Assembly (NCBI GenBank): GCA_900318375.1
Contig: ONKG01000013.1
Span: forward strand, 1 to 44,355
Reading direction: 5' to 3'
Length of the DNA: 44,355 bases
Origin: an uncultured Lachnospiraceae bacterium
GTDB taxonomy: Bacteria; Bacillota; Clostridia; Lachnospirales; Lachnospiraceae
The first letter of the stretch is position 1; each line of letters starts with the position of its first letter. Both the position numbers and the translations under genes were made by a program. Under the pieces are notes generated by a model that was given only the letters and a program-made list of their open reading frames with translations, searched no databases and had not been told where the DNA came from. This document shows, piece by piece, positions 96-22,990 of this stretch.

Positions 96-1814
96 TTACC
101 ATATACCGATATAGGCAGTAACAATCATTTTCTGGCGTATGTCCTCTATTGCCTTATCATAGAAAAAGTACAGGTTAGTCCGTGCTCTGGATACAGCAAC
201 ATAATGCAAAAGACGGGAGAAAGAATCATCCATTCTGTCAACGTCCGCTAACAGAATAACTTTTGCTTCCAGGCCTTTGAAAGCGGCAATTGTAGCGAAC
301 TGGACTTCATCAGCATTTCTCGTCCATATATCTCCGTATGTCTTAAGCTTATACGGCCTGTAAATTGATTTTCCATAAAGGAAGTTGAGAGGGTTGTCTG
401 GTTTATATCTTGACAAAATTACTATTTCGTTCCCGCGAATTCCTTCATTGGAAAGCTCCTGAAGCGTCTTGGTGATTAACTGGAATTCATCATCTTTTGA
501 AGAGTATGGAATATATGCTGCTTCATCACCGTCTGCCCTTGATTTTCCACTGGTCCTGATATTGGAGATCATATTATTAGCCCGGACAATCTGGCTGGTA
601 TTACGGCAATTGACCGTAAGTTCATAACTTACAGCATATTTCTTTTTCATTATTGAGATACACTCATCCAGTTCTCTGTTATCCTGAAAGATGTTCTGAT
701 TGGCGTCATAATATAATCCCCAACAGCCGCGATCCAGCCCTCCTTTCACCAACCGGTCAATACATGATATATATTTAAGACTCAACAGATCCTGTGCCTC
801 ATCAACGATCACAAGATCGTAGTCCGATACGACAGGAAGATGCAAGAACGCCTCTGGAAGCACTTCTCTGAAATACTCGGAAGAGTAATCGCCCGTTGGC
901 TCTGTTCCACACTCATTCTGCATGAGAGCATGGATTGTAGAAACTGTTATATCTACTGTCTCGTAATCAAACTTATATTTGACAAATCTTGCAATAGCAC
1001 TGTTATAGCACAGAAACAGGACACTTTTTCCCTCCCAATATGCTCGTCTTGCCTGTTCCATGGCTAAAAGCGTTTTACCGGAACCTGCCATGCCACGAAT
1101 CATAAGTCTGTCATTATCAGAGAGACTGCTCAGAATATCATATTGTTCTTCTGTCATGACACAGAGTTCTTCATTAATCTGATCTATTTTTGAGCGCATG
1201 AGAGGAACAAGCCTGAAATCCCCTCTGAGAAGATCCGCAACTCTTTTTATTTCAGAAGGTTCAAGATCGCCCCCGCCAAATCCATGTTTATCAACCATCT
1301 GGTCATGCCAGTAGGTGAAACTCTTATTGATTATCTTCTGCAGATCCCACTGAAAACTTTTATCAAAAAGGATATCCCGAATAATATCTGCACCTGTAAG
1401 GCTAAAGGTCATATCGGGCATTATGACAGCGGATGCATATTGGCATCGATATATGGGATCATCCGTGCCCAGTCTTTTTTTCAGGTAATCTCTTAAGGAA
1501 TGCATATTCCCCTGCACTTGCTGGAACGGCCCTTCCACTTTCTCACCCACAGCTCCGTACCTGTTGGTAAACCTCCATTTTCCGCCGATTCGTTCTACCT
1601 GTCCTCCTTTAACCTCCAGACAGAGAATGCCTTCTTTGCAAATGACGACAAAGTCAATCTCCCCAAAAATTTTGTTCACATGCTCTGCAATACCCAGTGA
1701 GTGGAGGATGATGATCTCATCATCCGTTTTAAATTTTCGAAAATCCCTGAAGAGCTTTTTCTCTGCGCCACTCTTGATTTCCGGGTCAATGTAATCTGGA
1801 AGCATTGTCACCAT
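96..1814 (-). CDS. NERD nuclease-UvrD/Rep-like helicase fusion, last gene of the defence operon
   Basis: This 572-residue protein joins a nuclease-related NERD domain to a superfamily 1 helicase. Residues about 10-120 carry the NERD core, with GEIDFVV followed by LEVKGG, the D...ExK pattern of restriction-like nucleases. The helicase begins with a Walker A motif (GMAGSGKT, about residue 245), has a Walker B motif VDEAQD near 338, and ends with the VAVSRA motif VI near 538. It probably unwinds and cuts DNA, but nuclease activity is inferred from the motifs only. The ATG at 1814 follows GGGGAGG at good spacing, and the gene overlaps the drmB-like stop by 7 nt, so the two are translationally coupled. 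It may supply the nuclease that DISARM systems usually get from DrmC, which is not seen here. No other product fits better. Confidence 0.85.
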   Translation of the reverse strand: MVTMLPDYIDPEIKSGAEKKLFRDFRKFKTDDEIIILHSLGIAEHVNKIFGEIDFVVICKEGILCLEVKGGQVERIGGKWRFTNRYGAVGEKVEGPFQQVQGNMHSLRDYLKKRLGTDDPIYRCQYASAVIMPDMTFSLTGADIIRDILFDKSFQWDLQKIINKSFTYWHDQMVDKHGFGGGDLEPSEIKRVADLLRGDFRLVPLMRSKIDQINEELCVMTEEQYDILSSLSDNDRLMIRGMAGSGKTLLAMEQARRAYWEGKSVLFLCYNSAIARFVKYKFDYETVDITVSTIHALMQNECGTEPTGDYSSEYFREVLPEAFLHLPVVSDYDLVIVDEAQDLLSLKYISCIDRLVKGGLDRGCWGLYYDANQNIFQDNRELDECISIMKKKYAVSYELTVNCRNTSQIVRANNMISNIRTSGKSRADGDEAAYIPYSSKDDEFQLITKTLQELSNEGIRGNEIVILSRYKPDNPLNFLYGKSIYRPYKLKTYGDIWTRNADEVQFATIAAFKGLEAKVILLADVDRMDDSFSRLLHYVAVSRARTNLYFFYDKAIEDIRQKMIVTAYIGIW

Positions 1815-3667
1815 TTTTGTTCCTCCCCGTATAAGAGATTACTGAAGAAGCCGATTTCTTTGTTGTTAAATGTTCCGACTATCGAGGCTCTGTCAAGAAG
1901 ACAGTTTCTCATTTCACAACAGGTTTCTGGCAAAAGTGTACAGGCGTGGCATGCCGCATAATTCAGCCCATCGACGCCCTGAGCCAGAGATTCTATACAT
2001 ATAGGATCTGAAGAACACCAGGAAGCAGCCTGCAGCATGTTCCGAAAGACTTTTTCCAGGTTTTCTGCTAAACCATTCCTGACCAGTCCTCCCAGGCTTC
2101 CATCTGAATCCGAAGTGGATGTATATAGCAAAATCCCAGCCATTTTTAAATCCGATCCCGGATAGGTACTGTAAATCCGTTCCTTAATCGCAGCGCCAGA
2201 ATATCCGCACTCGATGGAAAGCTGTCTGATCAAAAGGTGAGACAGTGTATGTAACAGCACATATCTTGGAGAGAATTTCTCACAATTCATGTAACTGGCA
2301 TCGAGTCTTTTCTTCATTTCATCATATCTGGAACTGTTTGATCTCTCCCATTCTTCAAGCAACGCTTCATTTAGTCTGATAAACAGGCCTTCTCCACGCA
2401 TTTCTATAGCAGGAAGCCAGGACAAGTCAGTATCGGCCAGTGGAACGTATCCATCCTTCTGGGAAAAGCCTTCGAAGCGATCATCATCGGCGCTGTTTTT
2501 TCCATATGCAATTCGCCTGAAACCATACACTGCGAGAACTTCTCTGAGACGTTTTGCCAGGACAACATCATCAATCAAACCATTCAAAACATCAGGAATT
2601 TCTGTCCGCACTATTCTGAAATCCAGATCATCGGGTTTATTATAGTTGCCCTTTAAAAAGACACGATATTCATCTTCTATGAGATCTTTTTTACTATAAT
2701 TATTTGTTTTTTCACCAGAAAAAGTCTTGCGCACTTCTCTTACAATATCGTCAACTGTAAACATTTTTGTCTCAAGAAGACGCATGAACATCGTCTGCAA
2801 AACTACTTTCAATACTTCATCTGCAGGATTTGAACTCATTAATGATTTTAGTTCTGCATAGTGCTTATTTATATTTTCCTGAAGCTTTCCGCTGTAGGGG
2901 GGTATCGTAAGGGCACTTTCAGTTTCAGGGAAGTAAACATTTGAAGCTCCTCTCTGCAATGTCCTCATTACAGCTCGGCATTCATTTTTGTCCCAGTACT
3001 CCTTTTTCATTCCTATCCAAGGCCGTTTTCCAACGCATGAATATCCCCTGAGAGAATCTTTATTCATGCATCCTGCCATGCTTCTCCTGGCACCACAGCT
3101 TTTACAGTGAATGATAATGCTGTCCAGGCCACCTGTCTCATCTGAAAACAGTATTTCAAGGCGATCTTCTTTTCTGTTATAGGGACATTTTGAGAAATCA
3201 CCTCTGTGAACCCACCACTGGTAAGGGAAGTCCTCTATATGCCCATTTATACATGCGGCTACGAATCTGGAAGGAACAATTTTCTTTTTGCACCCTCTGT
3301 TTCCACAGGTAACTCCTTTTTCCGCGTCTTTTCCAAAATTCCAGAAAGGTTCCAGACGGTGGCAATTTGGGCAGAAATGCATGTAGGGAAATCTGAAAGC
3401 GGGAATATCCGGGTGCACTTCATCATTCCACTCAGATGTGTAGCAATAAGGGCTGTAAAAGCAGGAGACCTTCAAAAGATCTTCTAGATGCCTTTCACGC
3501 AGTTCGCATCCCTCTGTTTTCCAGTACTGAGGAGATGCCATTATCACAGAATGGTCAGGAAGATCTGCTATTGACCCTGGGCCATAGGATGTTATCAGCT
3601 GTGCTCTTCGTATTTTTCCTACAACGGATCTCTTTTTCATGTGCTGTGCACCGGCATCAATAGGCAT
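1808..3667 (-). CDS. drmB: DrmB-like DUF1998 protein
   Basis: This 619-residue protein resembles DISARM DrmB, the DUF1998 partner of the DrmA helicase. In known DISARM the two form a DNA-binding complex that loads on foreign DNA. The N-terminal segment has zinc-ligand-like pairs (FCPNCH, CGNRGC, then CKSCGARR). The C-terminus has the diagnostic cysteine cluster ACHACTLLPETCCEMRNC followed by LDR, near residue 575. The open frame could start at 3697, but the ATG at 3667 is preceded by GAGGAGG six bases upstream and lies 2 nt past the upstream stop, so I use it. It sits between the DrmA-like helicase and the NERD-helicase, which it overlaps. The family assignment is strong; its exact role here is inferred from DISARM. 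Confidence 0.85.
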   Translation of the reverse strand: MPIDAGAQHMKKRSVVGKIRRAQLITSYGPGSIADLPDHSVIMASPQYWKTEGCELRERHLEDLLKVSCFYSPYCYTSEWNDEVHPDIPAFRFPYMHFCPNCHRLEPFWNFGKDAEKGVTCGNRGCKKKIVPSRFVAACINGHIEDFPYQWWVHRGDFSKCPYNRKEDRLEILFSDETGGLDSIIIHCKSCGARRSMAGCMNKDSLRGYSCVGKRPWIGMKKEYWDKNECRAVMRTLQRGASNVYFPETESALTIPPYSGKLQENINKHYAELKSLMSSNPADEVLKVVLQTMFMRLLETKMFTVDDIVREVRKTFSGEKTNNYSKKDLIEDEYRVFLKGNYNKPDDLDFRIVRTEIPDVLNGLIDDVVLAKRLREVLAVYGFRRIAYGKNSADDDRFEGFSQKDGYVPLADTDLSWLPAIEMRGEGLFIRLNEALLEEWERSNSSRYDEMKKRLDASYMNCEKFSPRYVLLHTLSHLLIRQLSIECGYSGAAIKERIYSTYPGSDLKMAGILLYTSTSDSDGSLGGLVRNGLAENLEKVFRNMLQAASWCSSDPICIESLAQGVDGLNYAACHACTLLPETCCEMRNCLLDRASIVGTFNNKEIGFFSNLLYGEEQKW

Positions 3668-3669
3668 GA

Positions 3670-6600
3670 TTACCTCCTCATAAGATATATTCCGCACTCT
3701 CTGTCGACATTCCTCATACTGTTCATTGTGCGGAATCTGCTGTCTGCATCATCACTCTTCAACAGATCTCTGTTCCCACCATAGCTTTTATATTCAAGTG
3801 AACCTGCGGCTTCGATGTCCCATTCCATTTTAATATCTCTAAGTTCGTCTTCCGCCGCTGTCAGCTCATCGGCATCTACAACACGAATATAATCCCTGAT
3901 ATACTCTTCAACTTTCCTGACTTCAGGATCCTCAGGATTATAATTGATTGCATCCGCATTTCCCCGGAGGCTACTTACGAGATATCTGCATAATGAAACA
4001 TACAGAGCGTGAAGTCCCCTGTCTCTCGCCCTGTCAGAGAAAGGTGTAAGGCTTGTCGCTTCCACATATCTGTATAAAGCTGAATGATATTTCTGAAACT
4101 GTTCGTAGTGCGACCTGTCCCGCGATTTTGAGGCATTGTACACAGTTACTACAAGCCCTGGATTGCTCCGACCAACACGACTGGTTGCCTGTATATATTC
4201 CGCATTGGCCTTGGGCTGTCCGGCTACTACCATAACTCCCAACCGGCTGACATCAACGCCTACGGAGATCATGTTTGATGCAAGCAGGAAATCATAGACA
4301 CCGATATGATTGTCCCGTGTATATGCATTATTAAGCCTGACCTGGATAACATCAGTGATCTTATTGTTATCCATACGGCTTGTCAGTTCTTCTACCTGAT
4401 CATAAGCGGCGGCTGGGTCTGTACCCGGATATAAGTGAGCAAACTTTGACTTTGCCAGATAACCGAACCTGCTCTGGACGTCATCGAGGATCTGAGTTGC
4501 AGCCCCCCCGAGTTCACGGAGTGAATTGAAATATCCGGTAATCGTCCAGAAATTATCGATTACCTTTTCTGAAAACCCGTTCTTTTCAAGTTCAATATAT
4601 CTGGAGGCAAAGAGGATTGCAGCATTAACTCTGATCAGTGTTGTTGTTGCTGTTGCACCGATTCCCATTAGCCCAAGATATCTTCTTGCAGGTCTATCCT
4701 CAGGAGATGACTGTTCAGCAAAAAATGAATTCTTTGCGGTGATTCCCTGTGGCGGAAACTGTGTGTGTTTCCTTCCGTAAAGAGCTTTTATCTGACTGGC
4801 AGCATTCCTGATAGTGGCTGTTGAGGCAATAATCTTGGCATTAATACCGTCAGACTGGCACAGTCTGGTGATAGCTGCTTCATAGATTCCTGTCATAGTT
4901 CCAAGAGGGCCGGAAATCAGATGCAACTCGTCCTGGATGATCAGTTCAGGCGGCTTTTTTCCGGATGTGATTCCAAACAGACTTGCCGGTTTATCATCGA
5001 GAGGTATCCGGGCGAATTTATCAACTGTTGCGACAATAAATGTCGGAAGGTGCCTGTAAATAGCTCCGTCAATGATGTGAAGAGGCATCCCCTCAGGCAG
5101 AGAATGGATATCACAGGACGGGTTAGAGCATTTGATGTACATCCGCTCACGTTTTACATCCACTGAATAATCTCTGGGAAGAATTGCTCCTCCACACCAT
5201 GGACACTTCTTTATCTGGCATGGATCGGATTTATCTCCGCTTATATCAGCGCCTCCCTGCTTCTTCCTGACACCTGTCCTTGCTTCTTCGATACTGTTCG
5301 GGGTAAGTTTGCTTCCAACCCACAGACCTATGGAGATTTCCGTACCTCCAAGTCTGTATTTCCTTCGGAGCAGTTCACAGGCAAAGATCAGCATGCTGGC
5401 ACGTTCAAACTGCTGCAGGGTGAGCAATCTGAGCGTATATCGCATCATAACAGTCACTCCGTCAGCATTTGGATCGCGCAGTCTCCTCAGAAAAATTGTA
5501 AAAGCGGTTATACCAAGATAGGCTTCTGTTTTTCCTCCACCTGTCGGGAACCACAACAAATCAACGGTATTCCGTTCAGGCAACGACGGGTCGATCATAC
5601 CGCCAATTTCATGAAGAATAAAGGCAATCTGGAATGGATACCAGGTAACAGTCGTTTTATCAAAATGTCTCCCCTCCTTCAACATCGTTCTTTCACGCTG
5701 AAGAAGCATGGCTTCATTGGCATACTGAAATGCCCTGTAGGCCAGTCCGTCTCCGGAAATACTCTCCCGAAGCAGTCTGATAGTAGTCCTTATCCGCTTC
5801 TGAGCGTCAAGGCACTTTCCTATATTTTCGTCTGCCGTCCTGAGCCTGTAATCAGGAAAAGCCCTGGATACTTCCCTTATGTCTTCAATCCATTTTCCAT
5901 ATTCATCGGTTAGTCTGGAAAGACCGTCAAGGACATTTCGGGGGTCGGCTGTTGCCAGATAATCCATGGAGAATATCTCCGGGTCACCATGAGAAGCTGC
6001 TTTCATCTGAAGCAGCTCATGTTGAGGGAGAAATTCAGTCTGAACCCACAAAGGGGTATCATTATCCAGATCCCAGGATACAGCGCATCCATGTCCCTGT
6101 GCATAACAGATGACATCAGAATACAACATTTCAAGCTCCAGAATCTCTGGATCTTCGCTCATTCGGACTTCTCTGGTGGCTTCAGTAAAAATGGATTCTT
6201 TGCCGCAAGAGGAGATTCTTACACGTGGCTGAAAGGCTGTATTCAGAGATGTAGCTGTAAGATCGGGCGATGAATTATTTTTATTGACAAGAACAACAGT
6301 TATTACCCGTTCTCCGCTGGAATAAACAGCATGAGTATATATATGGATTTCCATGCCATGCCCGACAGAAACCTTTTGGGGATTTTTATCGTCAAAAAGG
6401 ATATGTTCTGAAAATTCTGTCTTTTCTCTGATCCATAGAAGGCCACCATCCTGCTGATTTCCCTGCCTTCCTGCTCTGTCAAGGATATCAGAATCCGCTT
6501 CTGCCGTCGGCATTGGTGAATAAAATGAATATTCTCCTGACACAAGGATTTCTCTGGTCCCGGGGATGAGGGTACATGTGATTCCCATTGAAGACGGGTT

Positions 6601-6840
6601 TAACTGATTTGTCAAAGAGATTGAAGCATCGTAACTTTCAGTTCCGGTCTCAAGGAAGGGATTTCGTGCCATATCCTCAGCTTCAGTCTCATTTTTTGGC
6701 GGATACAGCTTACCCATAACATAATATGAAACAGGTATTTCAGACAGTACCTCATCTTCATATACCGGACCTATAAGGTCCTTTTCCAGTATTTCGGTTA
6801 TAATATCTCTTGCTTTGTAGAATTCAGAAAAATCAGCCAT
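3670..6840 (-). CDS. drmA: DrmA-like superfamily 2 helicase
   Basis: This 1056-residue protein matches the DISARM helicase DrmA. Its N-terminus holds the family-like segment DLIGP...DEVL...P..YY.MGKLYP. The ATPase begins with Walker A FPTGGGKTEAYLG near residue 432. A four-cysteine zinc insert (CPWCGG...CSNPSC) lies near 547-580, the DEAH-type box is QDELHLISGPLG near 637, and the C-terminal helicase lobe has QATSRVGR near 890. In characterised DISARM, DrmA with DrmB binds DNA with single-stranded ends and acts against incoming phage DNA. The start at 6840 has AGGAG seven bases upstream and lies 19 nt past the previous stop. No frameshift or missing motif is apparent, so it should be active. 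Confidence 0.87.
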   Translation of the reverse strand: MADFSEFYKARDIITEILEKDLIGPVYEDEVLSEIPVSYYVMGKLYPPKNETEAEDMARNPFLETGTESYDASISLTNQLNPSSMGITCTLIPGTREILVSGEYSFYSPMPTAEADSDILDRAGRQGNQQDGGLLWIREKTEFSEHILFDDKNPQKVSVGHGMEIHIYTHAVYSSGERVITVVLVNKNNSSPDLTATSLNTAFQPRVRISSCGKESIFTEATREVRMSEDPEILELEMLYSDVICYAQGHGCAVSWDLDNDTPLWVQTEFLPQHELLQMKAASHGDPEIFSMDYLATADPRNVLDGLSRLTDEYGKWIEDIREVSRAFPDYRLRTADENIGKCLDAQKRIRTTIRLLRESISGDGLAYRAFQYANEAMLLQRERTMLKEGRHFDKTTVTWYPFQIAFILHEIGGMIDPSLPERNTVDLLWFPTGGGKTEAYLGITAFTIFLRRLRDPNADGVTVMMRYTLRLLTLQQFERASMLIFACELLRRKYRLGGTEISIGLWVGSKLTPNSIEEARTGVRKKQGGADISGDKSDPCQIKKCPWCGGAILPRDYSVDVKRERMYIKCSNPSCDIHSLPEGMPLHIIDGAIYRHLPTFIVATVDKFARIPLDDKPASLFGITSGKKPPELIIQDELHLISGPLGTMTGIYEAAITRLCQSDGINAKIIASTATIRNAASQIKALYGRKHTQFPPQGITAKNSFFAEQSSPEDRPARRYLGLMGIGATATTTLIRVNAAILFASRYIELEKNGFSEKVIDNFWTITGYFNSLRELGGAATQILDDVQSRFGYLAKSKFAHLYPGTDPAAAYDQVEELTSRMDNNKITDVIQVRLNNAYTRDNHIGVYDFLLASNMISVGVDVSRLGVMVVAGQPKANAEYIQATSRVGRSNPGLVVTVYNASKSRDRSHYEQFQKYHSALYRYVEATSLTPFSDRARDRGLHALYVSLCRYLVSSLRGNADAINYNPEDPEVRKVEEYIRDYIRVVDADELTAAEDELRDIKMEWDIEAAGSLEYKSYGGNRDLLKSDDADSRFRTMNSMRNVDRECGIYLMRR

Positions 6841-6859
6841 ATCCGACTCCTGTCATTTA

Positions 6860-9484
6860 TCATCCCAGTGTATTGTTTGCTCTGTGTGCCAGTCCTGTAA
6901 GAGAAATCCCGGTCCATATGGACATACTTCCGAAGATCTTAGCCCCAGGGCAGTCGCCATTATTAACGGAAATACAGGATGTAAGCCTCTCTACATAGAC
7001 GTCTGTGAAAATATCAGGATAGTAACTGAAAGCAATTGAGGCTTTATTATTAAAAATTCTCTGCCATGCATTAGCAATCCCCCATCTGAAACCCTGACTC
7101 GTATAGCCGAGTATAACGGAAGGGTTATCATCAAGATGAATGGAATAAGACATGGTGCCGTTCATGATTTCATTTTCAGGCATCTTTTTCAGTAGAATCC
7201 CCATGTCTGGGCGAATGTTATTTCTGATATACTCCTGTCTTTCAGTACTGGCAGCAAAAGAAGATTCAAGTAAATCTCTGCTTTTTCCGATTTCGATATG
7301 GGAAAGATATCCCGTCTTTTTCCCAGGTCTCTTATTTGATTTAAAGCATCTTCCCTCATCATTCGGGAGAGTATAAAAAAAGTTGTTCTTTCCAGAAAGA
7401 CTGAACCGGTTGATCGTCTTTCTGGGCCTGGTTACAGCCACATAGCAGACTTTGTGTTCATTAATATCATCCTTTTCAGGATCCTGCATTTGTTGCAGAA
7501 CATCATCAAGTACCAGGACACTGTCAAACTCCCGGCCTTTTGCTCTGTGGATATTACTGACGGTGATTGACGTCGGTTCTTCTTCGACATTTTGGAACAG
7601 CAGGGGATCCTTTGGACTGTACAATACTCCCTTCAGGATGTCCTCAACATCATACCAGGTCTGATTCTGGTCTCTCTGTGTACTGATAAGAGCATCCCAG
7701 TAAGGATAAGCGTCCATGTCAGAATAAATATTACAGAAAGCTTTTTCAAATTCTGTTTCGTTTATCTCTGCATAATCATAGTCCATGAGCACTGCCGCAA
7801 TCCACGCACCATATAATCTTCTCGTAAGCGAGTGTTGTAGCCTGTGAGGAATATCGTTATTCCTGAGCCATGTTGAAATCTGTAGTGCCTGTCCATTATT
7901 CCTTGTCAGAATCCCCAATGATCCCCTGGCAATCAGTGATTTTGCCTCTTCTTCTGTCATATTTCTGATGTTGACTGACGAATCAGAAATACCTGCGGCA
8001 AGGACCTTTGCAGCGTCTGTTCTGCTCAGTGCATCTCCACTCAGAATGGCAGTTCTGTATGGCCGTGTAAATTTCTCGTATTCATCTCCTTGTCTGAAGT
8101 TCTTTTCAAGTGCAAGATAATGCGCGTTCCGGTACTTTGAAAAAACTTCATTATAGAATTCGGCAGATGACATCTGACCACTATCACTGTCGGAAAGGTA
8201 ATCATAAAGAGCCTGACATGCATCTCCGAGAATTGTAAAACCGCATTGTTCGGGAACTGACTGAAGAATTGTCAGTACCAGCTTTGCTCTGCTCCCCACA
8301 AGATCCTGTACCTCGTCCACGATAACATGGTCATAGTCGAGAAGAGTCGGGTTTTCAGAGATAAGATTTATTCCTGTAAGGATACGCTCATCATAATTTT
8401 GTTTTTCAAGTCTGTATCCGGGGGGGAGAAGCGAAGGATTAACATCTGCTATAAGAGCTATCATATAGGTTATATATGAATCGAAGGTTCTGATATCTAT
8501 CCTTTGCCATATATGGCCAACTCTGTCATCCTCGACAGCCTGTTCCATCCTTTCTTTTATCACTTCTACTGCAGCCCTTGAGAAACACAGAATCAGAATT
8601 CTTTCCGGTTCAATATCAAGGTCGTTTATCATGTAGATGATTTTTTCAATAAGCGTAAATGTCTTACCTGTCCCAGGCCCTGCGTTTACAACAGTTCTCG
8701 CTTCGGGAGCAGAACGTATTATGGTTTCCTGATCTGAACTTTCAAAAGACCCAAACCCTCTGACGGGTTCCTGGTCAACAGGTTTTTTTTCTTTTTTCGA
8801 AATATCATCTGTTTCACGATGCCGGGATGTTGTATCTGTAGCATAAGATATTTCTGGCTTTGTATCGTCAATCCCGCTCCCGGGTTCTAATGCGTGTGTT
8901 GAACTTCCATTCAAATGATCAGTGGCATTTTCAATCGTTTCTTCAGGCCTGCCTGTGACAGTTTCTTCCGAATTATCCTTTTTTCCTTTATTCAGACCGG
9001 GCTCTTTCTCTGTTACGACAGAAGAACCTGTCAGTGTGTTCATCTGAGTTTTAGACTCTGAAGATTTCTCATCAGGAACAGGATTGAGAACGATCACAGT
9101 CCCCAGTAAAGAATCCCGGATCCTTTCTGTCTCTGCCTGATTTTCAGCAAGAACATACAACTCTTTTTCATCAAAGTCAGGGCGGCATCTGTGGAAATTA
9201 CCGCATGATGTCTGCAGACATGTACATGTAACCTTTTCCTTCCCGGATTCATCACGTTTTATGCCCCAACAGTATTCATCTTTCGGGGAAAGAGAACACT
9301 TCATGCCATATTCAAGCTCATCCTGTTGTATCCGCGAAAACTTGTACCTGCCACCTGTTCGTGCTTCAAGCTTTTTCAAAGCAAAATAGTCTCTGATCTT
9401 TGAAAGGAATTTTTTGTCCTCTGATAAAACAACATCGGCAGGTTCGATGTTGCTGCTATACTTAACATTACTATTATTTGCCAT
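6860..9484 (-). CDS. UvrD/Rep-like helicase with N-terminal Cys cluster and linker
   Basis: This 874-residue protein has a superfamily 1 helicase core in its C-terminal two thirds. Visible motifs are Walker A NAGPGTGKT (about 265), VDEVQDL (about 391), NFRQGDEYEKF, IHRAKGREFDSV (motif V) and YVAVTRPRK (motif VI). Residues 1-110 hold an unusual cysteine/histidine cluster (CTCLQTSCGNFHRC) that could bind zinc or an iron-sulphur centre. Residues about 140-240 are a polar, charged, low-complexity linker. It starts one base after the Hsp70 stop, with GGAGAG upstream, so it is tightly coupled to the chaperone. SF1 helicases of this kind unwind 3'-5'; the polarity and partner here are inferred. The N-terminal cluster is not something I can place in a named family. 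Confidence 0.8.
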   Translation of the reverse strand: MANNSNVKYSSNIEPADVVLSEDKKFLSKIRDYFALKKLEARTGGRYKFSRIQQDELEYGMKCSLSPKDEYCWGIKRDESGKEKVTCTCLQTSCGNFHRCRPDFDEKELYVLAENQAETERIRDSLLGTVIVLNPVPDEKSSESKTQMNTLTGSSVVTEKEPGLNKGKKDNSEETVTGRPEETIENATDHLNGSSTHALEPGSGIDDTKPEISYATDTTSRHRETDDISKKEKKPVDQEPVRGFGSFESSDQETIIRSAPEARTVVNAGPGTGKTFTLIEKIIYMINDLDIEPERILILCFSRAAVEVIKERMEQAVEDDRVGHIWQRIDIRTFDSYITYMIALIADVNPSLLPPGYRLEKQNYDERILTGINLISENPTLLDYDHVIVDEVQDLVGSRAKLVLTILQSVPEQCGFTILGDACQALYDYLSDSDSGQMSSAEFYNEVFSKYRNAHYLALEKNFRQGDEYEKFTRPYRTAILSGDALSRTDAAKVLAAGISDSSVNIRNMTEEEAKSLIARGSLGILTRNNGQALQISTWLRNNDIPHRLQHSLTRRLYGAWIAAVLMDYDYAEINETEFEKAFCNIYSDMDAYPYWDALISTQRDQNQTWYDVEDILKGVLYSPKDPLLFQNVEEEPTSITVSNIHRAKGREFDSVLVLDDVLQQMQDPEKDDINEHKVCYVAVTRPRKTINRFSLSGKNNFFYTLPNDEGRCFKSNKRPGKKTGYLSHIEIGKSRDLLESSFAASTERQEYIRNNIRPDMGILLKKMPENEIMNGTMSYSIHLDDNPSVILGYTSQGFRWGIANAWQRIFNNKASIAFSYYPDIFTDVYVERLTSCISVNNGDCPGAKIFGSMSIWTGISLTGLAHRANNTLG

Positions 9485-9485
9485 T

Positions 9486-11021
9486 TCAGTAGCTCTCCGG
9501 AAGCCTGTAATAACATTTGAGTCTTGGATATTCCCACATTCTCTGGAACTCCTCAGGATGCATCCGGCTCCTGATGAAAGCTCTGAAGACCATATCCTTA
9601 TCTATAGTAACTGTCATATGCATGGATTCCTGTAAAAATCCATGAGCAGGGACAGAGCAGAACCTTTCATCGGATTTCACAATATCCTCAGAACCTCCGA
9701 ACAGAAATCTTGCCTGCCTGCTGTCATCAACCACACTGAAATTGAACTCCGCTTTATATCCTGCAACGGGCTTATCTTTTGAAAGAACAGGAAAGAAGGA
9801 CCCGTCGCTGAGTTCAATCCCTACTGACTGGTTAGAATAATAACCTCCCGGTAACATATTCAGTTTTGCTGCACCTTTAGCGACATTCCACGCAGTTTCA
9901 TCAGGAAAGAAAAGTTTGTCGCCAAAAATTTCCTCCATTCTTTCAATCAGAGGCCGAAGATTACTGCTTCCGCCAACCATAAGGACACTGTCAATATTGG
10001 CAATACCAAGCCCTGACTGTCTTATCGCTTCATGGAGGCAGTCTATTGCACTGCTGACTTCAGGTTCAATAATATCGACAAACCAGTCATAATCTATAGT
10101 TTCACGGCACACCCCATATTCACCATAATCGTTAATCTGAACAGTAGCTGTGTCATCTTCACTGAGCATGCATTTCGCCCTTTCAGAGCGCACCCGAAGC
10201 ATATCCTTTGCAGTGGCAGGCATGTCCTGATAAGAAATGTTCTTCCCTTTTTTTCGGGCGATTTTTGCGTGTAACCGTTCAGCAATTTTTCTGTCTATAG
10301 CATCGCCTGCAACATTCATTCCGGCAGTTGCCATTTCAGATATCTTTCCATTTGCATTAGCAATTATACAGACATCAAGAGTTCCGCCCCCCCAGTCAAA
10401 GACTGCAATATTGGAAGCGCCTCTCAATTCATCATAATTGGCATAAAATGCAGCAGTCGGCTCACTGACAAAAGAAGTAATCTTAATTCCCGCTTTTCCT
10501 GCCGCTTCCCTGATTTTCCTTCGTTTTTCAGGGGCCAGTCCGACCGGAATAGCGACCGTAGCCTCAGACAGTATTACATTGTGCTGCTCCATGGCCTTCT
10601 CCCGCAGACCAAGGAATACTCTGCTTGCGATATCAGTGGTAGTCCATTCTTTTCCGGCAATATGAAATACTTCGTCTTTTTCAATAATCGTTTTTATAGA
10701 TGAAATATATTCACAGGATTCACTGAGTTCCAGCTTTTTATCCCAGGCATCTCTCCCGGTATACACTTGTCCGCTTTTTTTATCAATTGCCACTACGGAA
10801 GGGACAGGTCTACCCATTGCGTCGCCGAATGTGACTTCCCTGGCCTCGATACCTGCTGTTCCTTTTATATAGGCTACAGTAGCGCTGTTTGTTGTTCCAA
10901 AATCTATACCAAAATGATATGTCAGGTCTGTCCTGTGATCTGATGTTGAAGACTCTGCTGACATATTCAGCATTCTGTCTTTTTCTATAAACTCTGAGTA
11001 TCGGTTCCGTTCTCTATACAT
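9486..11021 (-). CDS. Hsp70/DnaK-like ATPase of the defence operon
   Basis: This 511-residue protein has a complete Hsp70-type actin-fold ATPase at residues about 35-390: phosphate 1 motif GIDFGTTNS, phosphate 2 motif FDWGGGTLDVCI, and adenosine motif VLMVGGSSNL. The segment AIPVGLAP...REAAGKAG and VSEPTAAF are also typical. After the ATPase only about 110 residues remain, too short for a full substrate-binding domain plus helical lid (DnaK is about 630 residues). It is therefore a divergent Hsp70 with a reduced or replaced C-terminal half, unlike housekeeping DnaK. It lies 45 nt after the coiled-coil gene and 1 nt before the UvrD-like helicase. The likely role is ATP-driven assembly or switching of the defence complex, which is inference. 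GGAG precedes the chosen ATG by about ten bases. Confidence 0.83.
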   Translation of the reverse strand: MYRERNRYSEFIEKDRMLNMSAESSTSDHRTDLTYHFGIDFGTTNSATVAYIKGTAGIEAREVTFGDAMGRPVPSVVAIDKKSGQVYTGRDAWDKKLELSESCEYISSIKTIIEKDEVFHIAGKEWTTTDIASRVFLGLREKAMEQHNVILSEATVAIPVGLAPEKRRKIREAAGKAGIKITSFVSEPTAAFYANYDELRGASNIAVFDWGGGTLDVCIIANANGKISEMATAGMNVAGDAIDRKIAERLHAKIARKKGKNISYQDMPATAKDMLRVRSERAKCMLSEDDTATVQINDYGEYGVCRETIDYDWFVDIIEPEVSSAIDCLHEAIRQSGLGIANIDSVLMVGGSSNLRPLIERMEEIFGDKLFFPDETAWNVAKGAAKLNMLPGGYYSNQSVGIELSDGSFFPVLSKDKPVAGYKAEFNFSVVDDSRQARFLFGGSEDIVKSDERFCSVPAHGFLQESMHMTVTIDKDMVFRAFIRSRMHPEEFQRMWEYPRLKCYYRLPESY

Positions 11022-11066
11022 TTTTGATAATCTCCAACCTGTCTGACCTGGGCTTCACTATAAAAT

Positions 11067-12407
11067 CTAACTGTCTATTTCTAATCCGGATTTCTTCAGA
11101 ATGGCAAAAACATCTCCCAACTGTCCCCTCATATTCTCACCAAGTTCCACACTCATTGGAATGCTTTTAGCTGATATATAGTCCTGATATTCAAATCGAA
11201 GTTTTTCGGTTAGTTTCAGGATTTCTCCCCGGAATTTCCGGTCTCCTTCTTTCGAAGAAACTTCCAGCAATGCGTTCAGACTTCTTGCTTCTTCTTCTTT
11301 TTCAACAAGTTGCTTTCGGAGCACTTCAACCTCTTTCTGAAGATTCCTGACCTCTTCTGAAAGTTCAAGATTACGATGTCTGATATGTCCGCTGTTTTCT
11401 TTTTCCATTAGAACAGAACTCTTCAGATCGTCTATGTATGCCTGTTGCGATCTTATTAGTGAGGACGTATTGCCATTTGATTTCTCAAAAGCCGTATCCA
11501 GTCGGTCAATCCTGTTAATAAGCTGCTCAAGTACAGATGCAATATGTTTGACATTAAAAGCATTCTCTTCTGACTGAGCGTCACTGGTATTATTGCGTCG
11601 CCCCTCTTTGTCTGATCTTTCAGTGTCAGAAGCGGCTTCATCTTTTATAACAGGTTTCTCCTGACTCGATGAGATGACGGTTGTAACCGGATTTGCATGA
11701 GATGATTTTTCTGATTCTAATGTAATAGTGTTGTATGGATTGCTTTCAGCGGATTTCAGCTGAATTTCCATTTTCCCTTTTTGTGCAAGAGACTTTGGTT
11801 CGGAAATCCATTCCCTGACCATTTCAACAGCATTTTTCTGCTGTGTTGTTGGTTTTCTGACAGATGACGCATAAGCAATGGATTCAGTCAGCAATGTCTC
11901 AAACAGAGATCTGTCCCTTTCATTGTCAAACAACTTCTCAAAAACGAAATTAGCTGGGATAACCGTCAGTTCTGAATAAAAGTTGTTCATCATTGCCCCA
12001 TTGGCAGTTCCAAGTACCTTTCCCTCTTTGTTATAGTAGTAATTGGGCAGTTCTTTCATCACCATCTTACAGTATCGGTAGTCAACTTTACCGCTTATAA
12101 ATAGTGCAAGAAGATTGACAAGACTGTTAAATGCTCTGGCATTATCTTTCCGCAAAAAATTACTTATAAATAACTCATTGAGAAGCTTTTCTTTATCAGG
12201 ATCATCTTGCCGCACGAAATATGCCTTAAATGGTCCCATTTTTACGAACCTGAATCCCTTACTCATATAATCCTGAACACTCTCAGTGAATCCCTCTTCA
12301 GTGAGCATCTGATAAATCGCCCTATAATATAACTTTTTTTTATCCTGGTTTGGCTCTTTTCCACCTTCACTTAATAATTGTTTCATTACTTTAATATTTT
12401 CTTCCAT
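11067..12407 (-). CDS. Coiled-coil protein of unknown family, possible Hsp70 partner
   Basis: I do not recognise this 446-residue protein. Residues about 1-200 look like a compact, mostly helical domain rich in aromatic residues. Residues about 205-285 are a polar, low-complexity linker. Residues about 285-395 form a strong predicted coiled coil with repeated hydrophobic spacing and many Glu/Lys/Arg. A short C-terminal segment (about 395-446) follows. A coiled coil ending in a small domain next to an Hsp70 gene recalls nucleotide-exchange factors such as GrpE, but no convincing GrpE signature is visible, so this is only a structural analogy. GGGGG lies seven bases before the ATG. It lies 26 nt after vsr and 45 nt before the Hsp70 gene, so it is part of the same transcript. 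Confidence 0.72.
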   Translation of the reverse strand: MEENIKVMKQLLSEGGKEPNQDKKKLYYRAIYQMLTEEGFTESVQDYMSKGFRFVKMGPFKAYFVRQDDPDKEKLLNELFISNFLRKDNARAFNSLVNLLALFISGKVDYRYCKMVMKELPNYYYNKEGKVLGTANGAMMNNFYSELTVIPANFVFEKLFDNERDRSLFETLLTESIAYASSVRKPTTQQKNAVEMVREWISEPKSLAQKGKMEIQLKSAESNPYNTITLESEKSSHANPVTTVISSSQEKPVIKDEAASDTERSDKEGRRNNTSDAQSEENAFNVKHIASVLEQLINRIDRLDTAFEKSNGNTSSLIRSQQAYIDDLKSSVLMEKENSGHIRHRNLELSEEVRNLQKEVEVLRKQLVEKEEEARSLNALLEVSSKEGDRKFRGEILKLTEKLRFEYQDYISAKSIPMSVELGENMRGQLGDVFAILKKSGLEIDS

Positions 12408-12433
12408 TGTTTTCCCCCAGTAATATTTTCCTG

Positions 12434-12901
12434 CTAAAATTCTATATAGGAAGCATCATTGTTTAGAAATTTTACTACAGCCTCTACAGTTTCATCTCTC
12501 AGATTGAGATTTTTCTTCATTTTTTTTATCGTGCACTCCCAGATGACAAGCTGCCTGATTCCTGCATTAGCCAGTGCTTCACGCACGTTGTCATCTCGTA
12601 TTCTGTTTTTTTCGAATTTATTTTCCCAAAAATCCAGTCTGCTCTTGGGCATATATGCATACTTGCATCCCGAATGTCGATGCCAGAAGCACCCGTTCAC
12701 GAATATCGCAGTGTTATATTTTTTTAAATACAGATCCGGATGCCCAGGTACATAAGAGACATTTTTTCTGTATCGGATACCTTTTGCAAAAAGTAGTTTT
12801 CTGAAATAAACTTCGGGTCCTGTATCTTTGGAATGAATAGCAGACATATTTCTGCTTCTTTCTTCCCTCGTTTTAATATCGGCCATAATTATTATATTCA
12901 C
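12434..12901 (-). CDS. vsr: Very short patch repair endonuclease Vsr
   Basis: Vsr nicks next to T:G mismatches that arise when 5-methylcytosine deaminates, preserving the methylated motif (CCWGG in the Dcm/EcoRII case). This 155-residue protein has the full family pattern: TREERSRNMSAI near the N-terminus, VPGHPDLYL with the catalytic Asp, VNGCFWHRH with zinc/metal ligands, and RRDD-like ENKFEKNRIRDDNV followed by VIWECTI. The GTG at 12901 overlaps the endonuclease stop by 4 nt (GTGA), preceded by GGAAA. An ATG five codons downstream (12886) has no ribosome site, so I prefer the GTG. Its place inside the operon directly behind the restriction enzyme supports a role in repairing deaminated sites made by the linked methyltransferase. 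Confidence 0.93.
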   Translation of the reverse strand: MNIIIMADIKTREERSRNMSAIHSKDTGPEVYFRKLLFAKGIRYRKNVSYVPGHPDLYLKKYNTAIFVNGCFWHRHSGCKYAYMPKSRLDFWENKFEKNRIRDDNVREALANAGIRQLVIWECTIKKMKKNLNLRDETVEAVVKFLNNDASYIEF

Positions 12902-14145
12902 GCTTTCCAGGAATCATCAAATGCCTGTCGTTCTCGCACTTCCTGAAGGAAATCAGATACGGAATACAACCATTTTTTCTGTCGTTCTGAATAAGTTTCC
13001 TGAATTTCCTTTGGTATAACAAGCTGAAGATTTCTGCTGATCATTTCATTAGTCTGATATTCACTGATTGCACCCTCAAGAGTTATCAAGTGTTTTCTTT
13101 CAATACGATCTGCTTCTTCAAGCACTTGCCGCCAGCGATCTTTTGCAGTAGTTTTGGCTCCCAGCATTGTCAGATTTGTCGAAGGATAAGACATATCTTT
13201 ATATCTCTCAATCGAAGGAAACAGGAAATCAGGCTTTGACCTATTCTCCGTAATTGGGGTGTGTGAATAGCGAATGTTCTGAACTGTAAAAAGGGCTTCC
13301 AGATGGTTTTCGAGAGAGAATCCGGCACGTGACTTTCGACGGTTATTCACAGATAACGAGAAGCGAATAAACGCATCCACGTCTACTGCATCCTGATCAG
13401 TAAATCCTTCACGGAGACGTTCCTGAATCAAATGACGTTCCATGCACATAAACATTTTTTCTTCACGCTCATACCATCTCAGAAGAGCATCATCAGGATT
13501 CCTGATGGGATCAACTTCGACTGTAGACCTTGCAAATGCAGAAAACTCCTTCGTCGTTGGAAAGGAGTTTCCAAATCTGTCGACAAGAATCTCAGTGTAA
13601 TCATCTTCTGTATCACTGACGACTTCAATCCCAATCTGTAATAACAACATCCTGGCTGTAAATCTGACGCGGTCAGAAGGTTGTTCTTTGATTTCTGTTT
13701 TTGCGACAAACTTTCCGGAATCTTCTCCAGGCCTCACATCAAAAAGCCAAAATAGCTGATTCTCGATATTAGTTTCTTTTCTGGCGATGATTTCAAGGAC
13801 ACTGCCATCCTTTTTCTGGCATATAAACAGAGCATCTCCTGCTGAAGCGCTGGTGGTGACTTCATTTGTGGGATAATATAACCTCCATTCTGTTCTGGTC
13901 GCATGTCTGAATCTGGCATCGTACCATGTCAGTTCACCTTTTGCCTCTATCGGATCATCTTCATCTGCCATATACAGAAACTGGGTTGGAAGTACAAGCT
14001 TTTCCTGCCTAGTTCCGAACATTTTTTTTAATGCTGAGACACCATTATATTCGTGTTGGTTACTCACAGCCAAATCAGCTTCGACCGCCGATAGTCTCTT
14101 CACTGCAACTGCCGAAAAATAATCCCTCAGATACCCCGCCTCCAT
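12898..14145 (-). CDS. EcoRII-type restriction endonuclease
   Basis: This 415-residue protein resembles EcoRII (about 404 residues), a type IIE enzyme that cuts CCWGG and needs a second site bound by an effector domain. Residues about 40-150 look like the N-terminal B3-like effector domain (RTEWRLYYPTNEV...). The C-terminal catalytic domain shows RAGFSLENHLEALF, then SKPDFLFPS (about 307) and GAKTTAKDRWRQV (about 332), fitting the PD...xK nuclease core, then HLITLEGAISEYQ. The open frame extends to 14175, but ATG 14145 has GGAGG eight bases upstream and is a better start. It lies between the methyltransferase and vsr, as expected of a restriction-modification-Vsr set. CCWGG recognition is inferred from family and context. 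Confidence 0.87.
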   Translation of the reverse strand: MEAGYLRDYFSAVAVKRLSAVEADLAVSNQHEYNGVSALKKMFGTRQEKLVLPTQFLYMADEDDPIEAKGELTWYDARFRHATRTEWRLYYPTNEVTTSASAGDALFICQKKDGSVLEIIARKETNIENQLFWLFDVRPGEDSGKFVAKTEIKEQPSDRVRFTARMLLLQIGIEVVSDTEDDYTEILVDRFGNSFPTTKEFSAFARSTVEVDPIRNPDDALLRWYEREEKMFMCMERHLIQERLREGFTDQDAVDVDAFIRFSLSVNNRRKSRAGFSLENHLEALFTVQNIRYSHTPITENRSKPDFLFPSIERYKDMSYPSTNLTMLGAKTTAKDRWRQVLEEADRIERKHLITLEGAISEYQTNEMISRNLQLVIPKEIQETYSERQKKWLYSVSDFLQEVRERQAFDDSWKA

Positions 14146-14268
14146 TTTCTGTCCTCCAAAGTGTTTTCCTGCCATGAAACAGTGTTGTCTGTTAAATAAT
14201 TATACACATCAGCTGAATATGTCATATCAATGTATTGAGCTTTTCGGCGGATACATAAAACACAAGCA

Positions 14269-15429
14269 CTACTGCATTACCTCAGTATCGCCATTTTCGG
14301 GGACAGAGATATTCTTGGCATCCAGTTCCTGCATCTTATAAACCACGAGATGTGCTACATTTGCCATTAATGGGACAACAACAGAATTTCCAAACTGCCT
14401 GTATGCCTGTGTATCGGAAACAGGAATTTTAAAATCATCCGGGAATCCCTGCAGACGAGCACATTCCCGGGGGGTAAGTCTCCTCGGATTTTTTCCTTCC
14501 TGAGCAATCAATATTTCAGATCCGTCCTTATAATACCTTGCAGATAGTGTTCTTGAAATGCCATTAGGATCGGCGATTCCATAACCGAATCCATTTCCGG
14601 CAGCCTTATGTTTGGCTGCATAATTCTGCAGGTATGACCACAGCTTATCGGACAAAGTGTATCTTTCATCTACATCTTTTTCCAGTATATCACGCATTAC
14701 CGGCTTAGGGTCTGTTGGTGTAATATCAAAGGAGAACTTCACATCCTGTCCATATCTGTTTCGGTCAAAACCAATAATTAAAATACGCTCTCTGTGCTGC
14801 GGAACAAATCCCTGTCCGTCAAGAATCGCATGGAATACTTCGTAATTCAGCTCATCAAGTGATTCTGTTATTACTTTAAATGTTCTTCCACGGTCATGGC
14901 TTTTGAGATTTTTGACATTTTCCAGCATAAAAGCCTTGGGCCTTTTGGCTTTCAGGATTCGACACACATCAAAAAAGAGCGTTCCCTGAGTTTTATCCTC
15001 GAAGCCTGTCGCACGTCCCAGACTCTGCTTTTTTGACACACCTGCGATTGAAAATGGCTGGCATGGAAATCCTGCAACAAGGACATCATGGTCTGGGATT
15101 TCTTCTGCATCGACCTTTGTGATATCGCCATCCGGTTGTTCACCAAAATTAGCAAAATAAGTCTGTTGACTGTATTTATTCCATTCATTGGAATAAACAC
15201 AGTGTCCCCCAGCCTGCTCATATGCTATCCGCATACCGCCTATACCGGCAAACAAGTCAATAAAAGTAAATCCAGCTGTCGCCGGCACATCTTCTCGCAT
15301 CTCTCTTGTAAGAAACTGCATGACGGCATTACAGACAGAGTCCTGAACCGAAATATGATGTTTATCTGTGTACATGGAAAGCGCATCGAAAACCGCATCA
15401 TCCAGGCGAATGTGTATTTGCTTTGGCAT
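14269..15429 (-). CDS. DNA cytosine-5 methyltransferase with ribbon-helix-helix-like N-terminus
   Basis: This 386-residue enzyme transfers a methyl group to C5 of cytosine. It shows the motif order of the family: FIDLFAGIGG (SAM binding), GFPCQPFS with the catalytic Cys near residue 120, ENVKNL, and QHRERILIIG. After the recognition region come RRLTPRECARLQGFPD and QFGNSVVVPL. It corresponds in kind to DISARM class 2 DrmMII and to M.EcoRII/Dcm. The neighbours (EcoRII-like nuclease and Vsr) predict CCWGG methylation. The first 45 residues (KQIHIRLDDAVFDALSMY...) resemble a ribbon-helix-helix DNA-binding segment, which could let it act on its own promoter. The ATG at 15429 has GGGAG six bases upstream. 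It is first in the operon, so host DNA can be protected before the nucleases are made. Confidence 0.92.
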   Translation of the reverse strand: MPKQIHIRLDDAVFDALSMYTDKHHISVQDSVCNAVMQFLTREMREDVPATAGFTFIDLFAGIGGMRIAYEQAGGHCVYSNEWNKYSQQTYFANFGEQPDGDITKVDAEEIPDHDVLVAGFPCQPFSIAGVSKKQSLGRATGFEDKTQGTLFFDVCRILKAKRPKAFMLENVKNLKSHDRGRTFKVITESLDELNYEVFHAILDGQGFVPQHRERILIIGFDRNRYGQDVKFSFDITPTDPKPVMRDILEKDVDERYTLSDKLWSYLQNYAAKHKAAGNGFGYGIADPNGISRTLSARYYKDGSEILIAQEGKNPRRLTPRECARLQGFPDDFKIPVSDTQAYRQFGNSVVVPLMANVAHLVVYKMQELDAKNISVPENGDTEVMQ

Positions 15430-17671: not shown

Positions 17672-17677
17672 GCCTAG

Positions 17678-18619: not shown

Positions 18620-18939
18620 GATTCAAGGACCTCCTTTGTCAGTTTCATGAAGCTTTCTGCTGCTTTGCACCTGGGGGCGTATCGGTAGATGCTGATTCCC
18701 TCCGCGCTGGCTTCTGCGACTTTGACGGAAGAGGGGATGTAGGTGTCCATGACGCCGATGCTGCTTCCGTAGTTCTCGCGGATCATGGCTGTGATATCTT
18801 TCGCGTAGTTGGTTCTGTAATCCACCATGGAGATCAGGATCCCCTGGATCTCAAGGCCCTTGTTCAGCCTCTTTTTCACGACAGAGATTGTCTTGATCAG
18901 CATCTGCAGGCCGACGACTGGAAGGTATGCGGCAGGCAC
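18616..18939 (-). pseudogene. parA: C-terminal fragment of element parA
   Basis: This frame encodes the last 106-107 residues of a ParA ATPase (PAAYLPVVGLQMLIKTI, GILISMVDYRTNYAKDI, and a terminal KLTKEVLES). Its N-terminal partner lies at 23113-23570 on the far side of the recombinase element. A GTG at 18939 could start it but lacks a ribosome site. Joining the two halves gives an in-frame ParA of about 259 residues, the normal length for this family. It overlaps parB by 4 nt, as an intact parA would. Confidence 0.85.
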
Positions 18940-18940
18940 A

Positions 18941-18964: not shown

Positions 18965-18968
18965 CGTC

Positions 18969-18994: not shown

Positions 18995-19054
18995 CCATTC
19001 TTCAGGACCAGGTATGTTTATCTGCCTTAACCCGAAAAACGATACACATAACGT

Positions 19055-20116: not shown

Positions 20117-20118
20117 AT

Positions 20119-22987: not shown

Positions 22988-22990
22988 CTC

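Follow-up and report, generated by a model that had tools for sequence, protein, structure and literature searches.

An Hsp70-linked DISARM-type operon with an EcoRII-type restriction-modification cassette in an uncultured Lachnospiraceae bacterium

The 44,355-nucleotide (nt) contig ONKG01000013.1 of an uncultured Lachnospiraceae bacterium (GenBank assembly GCA_900318375.1), below called the window, carries nine intact open reading frames with zero internal stops on the minus strand of positions 96 to 15429. Read from 15429 to 96, they encode a C5 cytosine methyltransferase, an EcoRII-type nuclease, a Vsr endonuclease, a coiled-coil protein (CC), an Hsp70, a UvrD-like helicase, DrmA, DrmB, and a helicase with a NERD nuclease domain (NERD-helicase). 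We found that the CC-Hsp70-UvrD-DrmA order recurs in other genomes and that the UvrD of such loci typically bears an N-terminal adaptor domain. Since this Hsp70 combination recurs in distant bacteria while the associated restriction enzymes change, it seems to be a genuine DISARM branch, and one with a new kind of control part. The fuller reading, to which we give even weight, is that the locus is a DISARM branch joining DrmA-DrmB to an Hsp70 module and an exchangeable restriction-modification (R-M) cassette, in which one methyl mark would serve two layers of defense under an Hsp70 switch. Our analysis shows at the sequence level which parts are present and in what order, that they are inherited jointly, that Hsp70 and the adaptor domain go together in our sample, and that the R-M cassette is exchanged.

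Gene content of the operon

The window is an entire contig (C117), and the genome to which it belongs is fragmented (193 contigs, completeness 82.28). The features of the operon are as follows.

14269..15429, minus strand: C5 cytosine methyltransferase, Dcm/M.EcoRII-like (PF00145, 2.3e-94; TIGR00675 over cut-off)
12898..14175, minus strand: EcoRII-type restriction endonuclease, 425 amino acids (aa) (PF09019, EcoRII-C, 2.5e-66)
12434..12901, minus strand: Vsr very-short-patch-repair endonuclease (TIGR00632, 126 bits, cut-off 97.85; PF03852, 2e-29)
11067..12407, minus strand: CC, 446 aa, with an N-terminal part, a coiled coil, and a conserved C-terminal stretch of ~50 aa
9486..11021, minus strand: Hsp70 (DnaK-like) ATPase (PF00012, 1.3e-34)
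6860..9484, minus strand: UvrD-like superfamily 1 (SF1) helicase with an extra N-terminal domain (PF00580, 1.7e-22; PF13361, 6.5e-10)
8750..9484, minus strand: N-terminal region of the UvrD-like protein, residues 1 to 245, with the Hsp70-linked adaptor domain (alignment A8 and profile)
3670..6840, minus strand: DrmA, superfamily 2 (SF2; YprA-family) helicase (NF038325 DISARM_DrmAS, 961.7 bits, cut-off 950; PADLOC DrmA, 1.1e-232)
1808..3697, minus strand: DrmB, DUF1998/MZB protein (NF038324, 507.9 bits, cut-off 240; PF09369, 1.7e-8)
96..1814, minus strand: NERD nuclease domain plus SF1 helicase (PF08378, 8.7e-11; PADLOC RTasNERD-Hel, 3.5e-51)

The locus belongs to DISARM by its DrmA and DrmB, both of which exceed the NCBI curated cut-offs. 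The methyltransferase is likewise of a DISARM-associated kind, its best PADLOC model being DrmMII (PDLC02653, 6.4e-150), with an almost equal score from the generic type II model (7.6e-148); it also matches NCBI PRK10458 (DNA cytosine methylase) below the cut-off. DrmC gave no match among the nine genes in PADLOC or Pfam, the contig stopping 95 nt past the NERD-helicase, and a crude HxK(x4)D scan and Pfam searches of two downstream genes (L052 and L057; loci carry L numbers and genomes G numbers throughout) revealed no phospholipase D (PLD) gene in relatives. DrmC is often absent from DISARM loci, according to excerpts of PMC9142583.

A preliminary description of this DNA, made from the sequence alone, had proposed nine tightly packed genes with overlaps or gaps of 1 to 45 nt from vsr onward. 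The intact reading frames and the measured junctions (93, -4, 26, 45, 1, 19, -28, and -7 nt in operon order, a minus sign denoting overlap) agree with it, and of five terminator-like sites that were listed for the coding strand, none falls inside a junction. The family matches also bear out its DISARM core, EcoRII-type R-M-Vsr set, and Hsp70, including a DrmA match in the search with defense-system models (PADLOC) that it had suggested. It had further regarded the additional helicases as added to DISARM; the genes are indeed present, but a UvrD-like gene is the direct upstream neighbor of DrmA in 44 of 78 DISARM loci. What is special here is the Hsp70 module, with its CC neighbor and the N-terminal domain of UvrD, and not the placement of UvrD before DrmA.

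Recurrence of the Hsp70-linked gene order

When 398 genomes of the same phylum were searched for DrmA, 18 had a match, including that of the window, and 14 regions from 13 of the 17 others were read. In three of these (L038, L039, and L042), a coiled-coil gene is followed in tandem by Hsp70, UvrD, and DrmA. When one genome per species was then scanned with a DrmA alignment of Hsp70-bearing types, at least 586 relatives were confirmed, and among the best 80, which we analyzed, the CC-Hsp70-UvrD-DrmA tandem occurs in nine (L052, L054, L055, L057, L058, L060, L061, L062, and L064; L057 and L039 are one contig). The CC of L061 was assigned by place and alignment, and the CC scores of L060 and L064 are weak (9e-5 and 3e-4). 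All nine rank among the first 13, the other four being a locus cut at its contig start (L053), one with Zorya-like genes (L056), and two with other genes (L059 and L063), and the tandem is found in 0 of the remaining 67. As the query was built on Hsp70-bearing types, the sample leans to Hsp70 loci and shows recurrence rather than prevalence. In total, the carriers are eleven genomes of the window's DrmA clade (see below), the window included, and L042 outside it; those that are named belong to Bacillota, apart from one Synergistota (L064) and one Melainabacteria (L055) genome. The order from CC to DrmB is present in the named strains Eubacterium coprostanoligenes ATCC 51222 (L054) and Anaerosalibacter bizertensis (L058). 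The preliminary description had called for a check of whether the Hsp70, coiled-coil, and UvrD-like genes co-occur with drmA-drmB, and would have been contradicted had they never again stood together; they do so in ten more clade genomes and in L042.

The presence of the NERD-helicase varies more: it comes after DrmB in the window, L052, L054, L055, and L057 but not in L058, L061, and L062, while the sequences of L038, L060, and L064 end earlier; across DISARM, a relative follows DrmB in 14 of 78 loci. At the corresponding place of L058 (15014-17125, A. bizertensis), a gene for a 703-aa reverse transcriptase follows DrmB; the best PADLOC model of the window's own NERD-helicase is itself named RTasNERD-Hel.

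Hsp70 searches made independently of DrmA recovered the subfamily in 8 of the 398 genomes at 1e-75. One of them, G175 (L160), has a homolog of a ~1,040-aa protein that also occurs in clade loci, followed by CC, Hsp70, and UvrD up to a contig end inside UvrD. Searches with the Hsp70 against viral contigs and with CC against plasmids recovered no new relative, and CC in 99 near relatives recovered the window itself only. The Hsp70 profile found the window alone in 391 genomes of its class, G262 alone in 63 genomes of that genome's order, and, in the classes of G131 and G207, one genome of three and one of four, in each case the center genome itself.

Four other matches were set apart. Hsp70 triads in Paenarthrobacter (L004) and Micromonospora (L112) involve a distant Hsp70, which in L004 has no DrmAB annotated nearby and in L112 lies on the opposite strand ~3 kb after the DrmAB genes; an Aliarcobacter match (L007) is annotated as a RecQ-family helicase; and a Tsukamurella match (L005) has a UvrD gene and no DrmA or DrmB match with the queries used. 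The L004 (10781-15166, Paenarthrobacter plasmids) and L112 (17814-22212) sets combine this different actinobacterial Hsp70 with two uncharacterized proteins around or after it.

Lineage and joint inheritance

The DrmA tree comprises 91 rows (77 of the best 80 loci, 13 others, and the window) and is a quick tree with Shimodaira-Hasegawa-like approximate likelihood ratio (SH-aLRT) support. The window's DrmA falls in a clade of 13 rows (SH-aLRT 100), 11 of them Hsp70 positive and the others being L056 and the truncated L093; the DrmA of L042 lies outside, among Rhizobium- and Paracoccus-type loci. Across the whole tree, well-supported branches require at least four switches of the Hsp70 label, so that Hsp70 must have been gained or lost more than once. 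The pairwise identities of Hsp70 track those of DrmA (r=0.92, 55 pairs), as those of DrmB do (r=0.88, 36 pairs). The clade Hsp70s and those of L160 to L164 form a single group (98/98) separate from seven DnaKs, with L161 and L162 nested at two different places. Within the same DrmA clade, L056 (3613-14869, Acetatifactor sp. Tb.RUG.447) is an apparent Zorya-DISARM hybrid.

The Hsp70, CC, and adaptor domain

The Hsp70 contains an actin-like ATPase domain by its PF00012 match and its DnaK catalytic residues: D40, K110, E187, D209, T214, and D216, which we take to correspond to named DnaK residues, are invariant in 10 rows and align with DnaK. In its ATPase motifs the protein agrees with the DnaK encoded in the same genome, and across the family these motifs are for the most part invariant. 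The protein is colinear with DnaK up to residue 491 and ends at 511, after the beta part of the substrate-binding region, so the helical lid is absent. This beta part is aligned within the full profile match (100%) and alone reaches only 3.2% probability; from these alignments, a nucleotide-binding domain plus a beta substrate-binding domain is the probable architecture. The Hsp70 of L055 (1830-4175, Gastranaerophilales) additionally has an N-terminal array of tetratricopeptide repeats (TPRs).

CC belongs to no Pfam or NCBIfam family, and its PADLOC match is weak (LmuB, 0.0053). It stands directly before Hsp70 in every clade locus read, its homologs at the same place in relatives are 13 to 22% identical, and L403, Y407, F434, L437, and G441 are invariant in 11 rows. 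To the eye, the C-terminal motif resembles the GrpE helix pair, and a role as a GrpE-like exchange factor was considered; compared as profiles, CC and 19 GrpE sequences reached a probability of 0.5 to 2.8%, and homology was rejected. GrpE appears neither in the P0001 Pfam table nor among the 25 families listed for 10 members.

The UvrD-like protein has the Walker A motif AGPGTGKT. A profile of its adaptor domain matched 9 of 9 Hsp70-positive and 0 of 34 assessable Hsp70-negative UvrD-DrmA loci (Fisher 1.8e-9, kinship ignored), and the pairing holds for the four loci outside profile building (Fisher 1.4e-5, again ignoring kinship). The domain is marked by an SN..SN motif and, in the window, by a C-x-C-x4-C-x5-C pattern. 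It also occurs apart from both DrmA and a helicase motor. In G262 (L161 and L165), CC and Hsp70 precede a 558-aa protein that combines the adaptor with the C-terminal portion of UvrD and has no motor, and G207 (L162) has the same motor-less CC-Hsp70-adaptor trio without DrmA on a 5.7-kb contig. The Hsp70-adaptor pairing, together with these two trios, makes it likely that Hsp70, CC, and the adaptor constitute a module, and the adaptor is the likely contact point with the helicase.

In G262, the next genes encode a PLD nuclease with weak DrmC matches, a 1019-aa uncharacterized protein, and a UvrD-family helicase, and further ones a PAPS-reductase-family protein (BrxP and DndC models), SspB, a 1191-aa uncharacterized protein, and a class-V aminotransferase, possibly a cysteine desulfurase. 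By this gene content, the set is of the phosphorothioation type and possibly undescribed; it spans L165 485-18562, L161 being the first 15 kb. We advance tentatively, and with more doubt than confidence, that Hsp70, CC, and the adaptor are a portable chaperone-based control module used across self-marks (5-methylcytosine in DISARM, phosphorothioation in L161), in which a DnaK-like ATPase would gate DNA-destroying helicases and which would be swappable within the clade for a Zorya-like membrane motor (L056).

A degenerate Hsp70 paired with an adaptor-only protein of 224 to 233 aa occurs in L163 (9470-11698) and L164 (9295-11448), among pilin-like and amino-acid-oxidase-like genes (by eye) and, in L163, a uracil-DNA-glycosylase gene; the pair is possibly a co-opted nondefense version.

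The restriction-modification cassette and the methyl mark

The closest PDB relatives of the methyltransferase are the cytosine-specific methyltransferases 3lx6 (6.4e-102) and 3me5, and with 3lx6 it shares the stretch RTLSARYYKDG(S/A)EILI, which we predict to be the target reader, with CCWGG as the predicted specificity. Its first ~45 residues (window 15295-15429) resemble a ribbon-helix-helix repressor by eye, with no family match; in L006 (Rhizobium rhizogenes), a separate CopG gene immediately precedes the methyltransferase. The nuclease contains the EcoRII-C domain and matches EcoRII (PDB 1na6) at 3.6e-40, with 1na6 and 3hqg aligned over residues 195 to 413; it retains the EcoRII stretches KPDFLFP and KTTxKDRWRQ, the identity of the catalytic residues of EcoRII-type nucleases being presumed here. 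Its plasmid relatives are 45 to 49% identical over 96 to 97% (15 matches listed of 2594). We dropped the PADLOC label VSPR as a name for the Vsr-containing set, since excerpts of two papers say that it is not a defense system.

What precedes CC varies among the relatives. EcoRII-Vsr occurs, within the clade, in the window only. LlaJI-type nuclease genes take its place in L052, where the contig begins, leaving any methyltransferase outside view; L054 has a divergent HpaII system with two C5 methyltransferases and Vsr; and L038 and L057 have a C5 methyltransferase with a ~1,040-aa uncharacterized protein, homologs of which occur in L058 and L160. No R-M gene was recognized upstream of CC in L060, L061, or L062, and L055 and L064 have too little upstream sequence for a judgment. 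Because the cassette place thus differs (EcoRII, HpaII, LlaJI, or uncharacterized), the nine genes are not a fixed set, and the comparison argues that EcoRII-Vsr is an exchangeable cassette before an Hsp70-DISARM core. The single composite nine-gene system of the preliminary description accordingly holds for the recurrent core and Hsp70 set and fails for the exchangeable EcoRII-Vsr and the inconstant NERD-helicase. Such swaps of EcoRII, HpaII, and LlaJI before one core suggest that DISARM-type systems can borrow their self-mark from whole R-M systems, and this opens their modular logic to testing.

Among the best 80 loci, L090 and L108 also have EcoRII-type genes no more than 10 kb from DrmA, and L123 has a fragment of one; 5 of 397 other genomes of the phylum have an EcoRII-type match at 1e-10. 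The comparison of the two figures is a hint, as the samples differ in taxa and defense genes cluster anyway.

CCWGG is the EcoRII recognition site. DISARM is reported to methylate CCWGG (excerpts of PMC5957327, citing Ofir), and DrmAB, which binds single-stranded DNA and 5' overhangs and is otherwise autoinhibited, has a lower ATPase rate with methylated DNA (Serratia system; excerpts of PMC9142583). With these three points together, a single mark for both layers is the simplest reading.

Proposed mechanism and alternatives

In the mechanism that we propose, the Dcm-like enzyme would methylate CCWGG, and this one mark would both shield the host from EcoRII and damp DrmAB, with Vsr mending the T:G mismatches that arise when 5-methylcytosine is deaminated. 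As a first layer, EcoRII would cleave unmarked DNA. As a second, DrmAB and the two SF1 helicases, one of them with the NERD nuclease domain, would act on the ends and single-stranded DNA of replicating phage. Hsp70 with CC would act as a switch powered by ATP, holding or loading the adaptor-UvrD and releasing it once infection shifts the Hsp70 client or nucleotide pool. An ATP switch on the UvrD adaptor is in our view the likeliest use of the Hsp70 and yet the least certain step. Phages without its methylation site are still restricted by DISARM, whose triggering and self-avoidance are only partly known (excerpts of PMC9142583). A discrete ATPase and a discrete adaptor domain, each removable, would give a handle on this control, and the proposal, if true, would be an unusual case of a chaperone as a control element of DNA-targeting immunity.

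Several observations weigh against this proposal or the association behind it. The genome-level coupling of Hsp70 and DrmA is modest: only three of the eight genomes with the Hsp70 subfamily have a DrmA match (two besides that of the window), and without the window this is 2 of 397, with 0.30 expected (P=0.03). G175, 97% complete, yielded no DrmA match, nor did G262 or G207. L042 has the same gene order outside the clade with an Hsp70 only 23% identical to that of the window, a UvrD in which no adaptor is seen by eye, and a CC recognized just by its position and coiled coil. In L056, ZorA-, ZorB-, and ZorC-like genes (ZorA models, OmpA/MotB domains) replace CC-Hsp70 before UvrD-DrmA-DrmB. As to the adaptor, the strict, zinc-suggesting four-cysteine pattern is present in only five of nine, the Hsp70-negative L130 fits the loose SN..SN pattern although not the profile, and in G408 and G451 a degenerate Hsp70 stands with the bare adaptor domain, without CC, among neighbors that do not look defense-like. 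Finally, of the five other EcoRII-bearing genomes of the phylum only G459 has a DrmA, on another contig.

Among the alternatives, Hsp70 and CC could be a folding or assembly chaperone for a very large complex of DrmAB and the SF1 helicases, mattering for expression and not for sensing or switching. The intact ATPase motifs and probable beta substrate-binding domain, the one-nucleotide spacing between Hsp70 and UvrD, and the TPRs fused to the L055 Hsp70, which fit protein binding, are all compatible with such a chaperone. DISARM otherwise dispenses with Hsp70, however, as the tandem is missing from all 67 loci past the 13 nearest, and the module persists without a helicase motor, where there is less to fold; we consider this explanation unlikely, though worth keeping in play.

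The EcoRII R-M-Vsr cassette might instead stand alone beside an Hsp70-DISARM operon and share neither mark nor function with it. Plasmids often carry EcoRII-type genes (the 2594 records noted above), and no other clade locus read has one. DISARM is thought to need a methyltransferase against self-attack, however, and the visible operon would have none without the cassette; moreover, EcoRII-type genes recur beside other DISARM loci (L090 and L108), and the gap between Vsr and CC is 26 nt. This, too, strikes us as an improbable account, on a par with the assembly chaperone.

Hsp70 and CC could also sense infection by recognizing phage or misfolded proteins and then set off the helicases, with the R-M part as an independent neighbor. 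The Zorya-like genes at the CC-Hsp70 place in L056 would then be a possible sensor swap, and in L161 the module is joined to other effectors. No phage trigger is known, however, and DrmAB already senses DNA through the 5' overhang and methylation (excerpts of PMC9142583), and we rate this role as slightly less likely than the two preceding accounts. An assembly chimera or chance neighborhood, suggested by a genome in 193 contigs with 82% completeness, is very improbable overall and is rejected for the CC-to-DrmB part, since named strains (L054 and L058) have that order.

Relation to known systems

DISARM class 2 consists of DrmMII, DrmA, DrmB, DrmC, and DrmE. The window shares with it a DrmA and a DrmB over cut-offs and a C5 methyltransferase best matched by DrmMII, and differs in adding Hsp70, CC, adaptor-UvrD, NERD-helicase, and EcoRII-Vsr and in having no DrmC among the nine genes. 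All three genes of an EcoRII/Dcm R-M system with Vsr are present with long matches and intact motifs, but here the cassette precedes a DISARM-type operon on the same strand.

A DISARM-like cassette with McrBC operons has been noted (excerpts of PMC11090510 and PMC12458937), and we take L006 to be such a cassette. Its order, from a methyltransferase through to Vsr-UvrD-DrmA-DrmB-NERD, is that of the window, but a weakly AAA-like protein (PADLOC PDC-M26A) and a DUF2357/PD-(D/E)XK protein stand at the place of EcoRII, CC, and Hsp70, and its UvrD is without the adaptor domain (by eye). CoCoNuT Type III likewise has an Hsp70-like protein (CnuD) and coiled coils in a defense operon (excerpts of PMC11090510). 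In contrast, neither an McrB-like GTPase (CnuB) nor an McrC-like protein was recognized among the window's nine, and the Walker-A-like motifs of CnuD are degenerate by the description in those excerpts, whereas the window Hsp70 keeps the DnaK motifs. ARMADA, Druantia, and Dpd share a YprA-family helicase, and ARMADA II a GajB-like SF1 helicase (excerpts of PMC12458937), but the window's DrmA is separate from DrmB and scores as a DISARM DrmA, and no PglX-like or BrxHII-like gene is among its nine.

We found no co-mention of DrmB and Hsp70 in 5.39 million open-access papers, and wider searches listed no paper that we recognized as a description of this DISARM-Hsp70 gene set; Hsp70 and EcoRII have zero occurrences in the main text of the YprA-family preprint (PMC12458937). 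The Hsp70-bearing DISARM variant may be new as far as these searches reach, and the Hsp70 module may be of wider interest.

Flanking genes and further observations

In L066 (2995-13219), a ~1,600-aa protein with a TmtA (weakly sacsin-like) front and an SF2 helicase end immediately precedes UvrD-DrmA-DrmB. Domain scans for this protein type covered L066 and the similar L059 (Dehalococcoidia) only; by length and order, a comparable ~1,600-aa gene occurs in many actinobacterial loci of L065 to L104.

Upstream of the operon in the window, minus-strand genes at 16640-24625 encode a RepA_N/DUF6017 protein, ParB, three tandem tyrosine recombinases, and a second ParB_N protein, with a tRNA-Arg(cct) beyond them at 25019-25097. 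The G+C content is 0.39 to 0.47 over the operon and about 0.50 past 23 kb. Together they make up a plasmid-like integrated element, a possible carrier of the operon.

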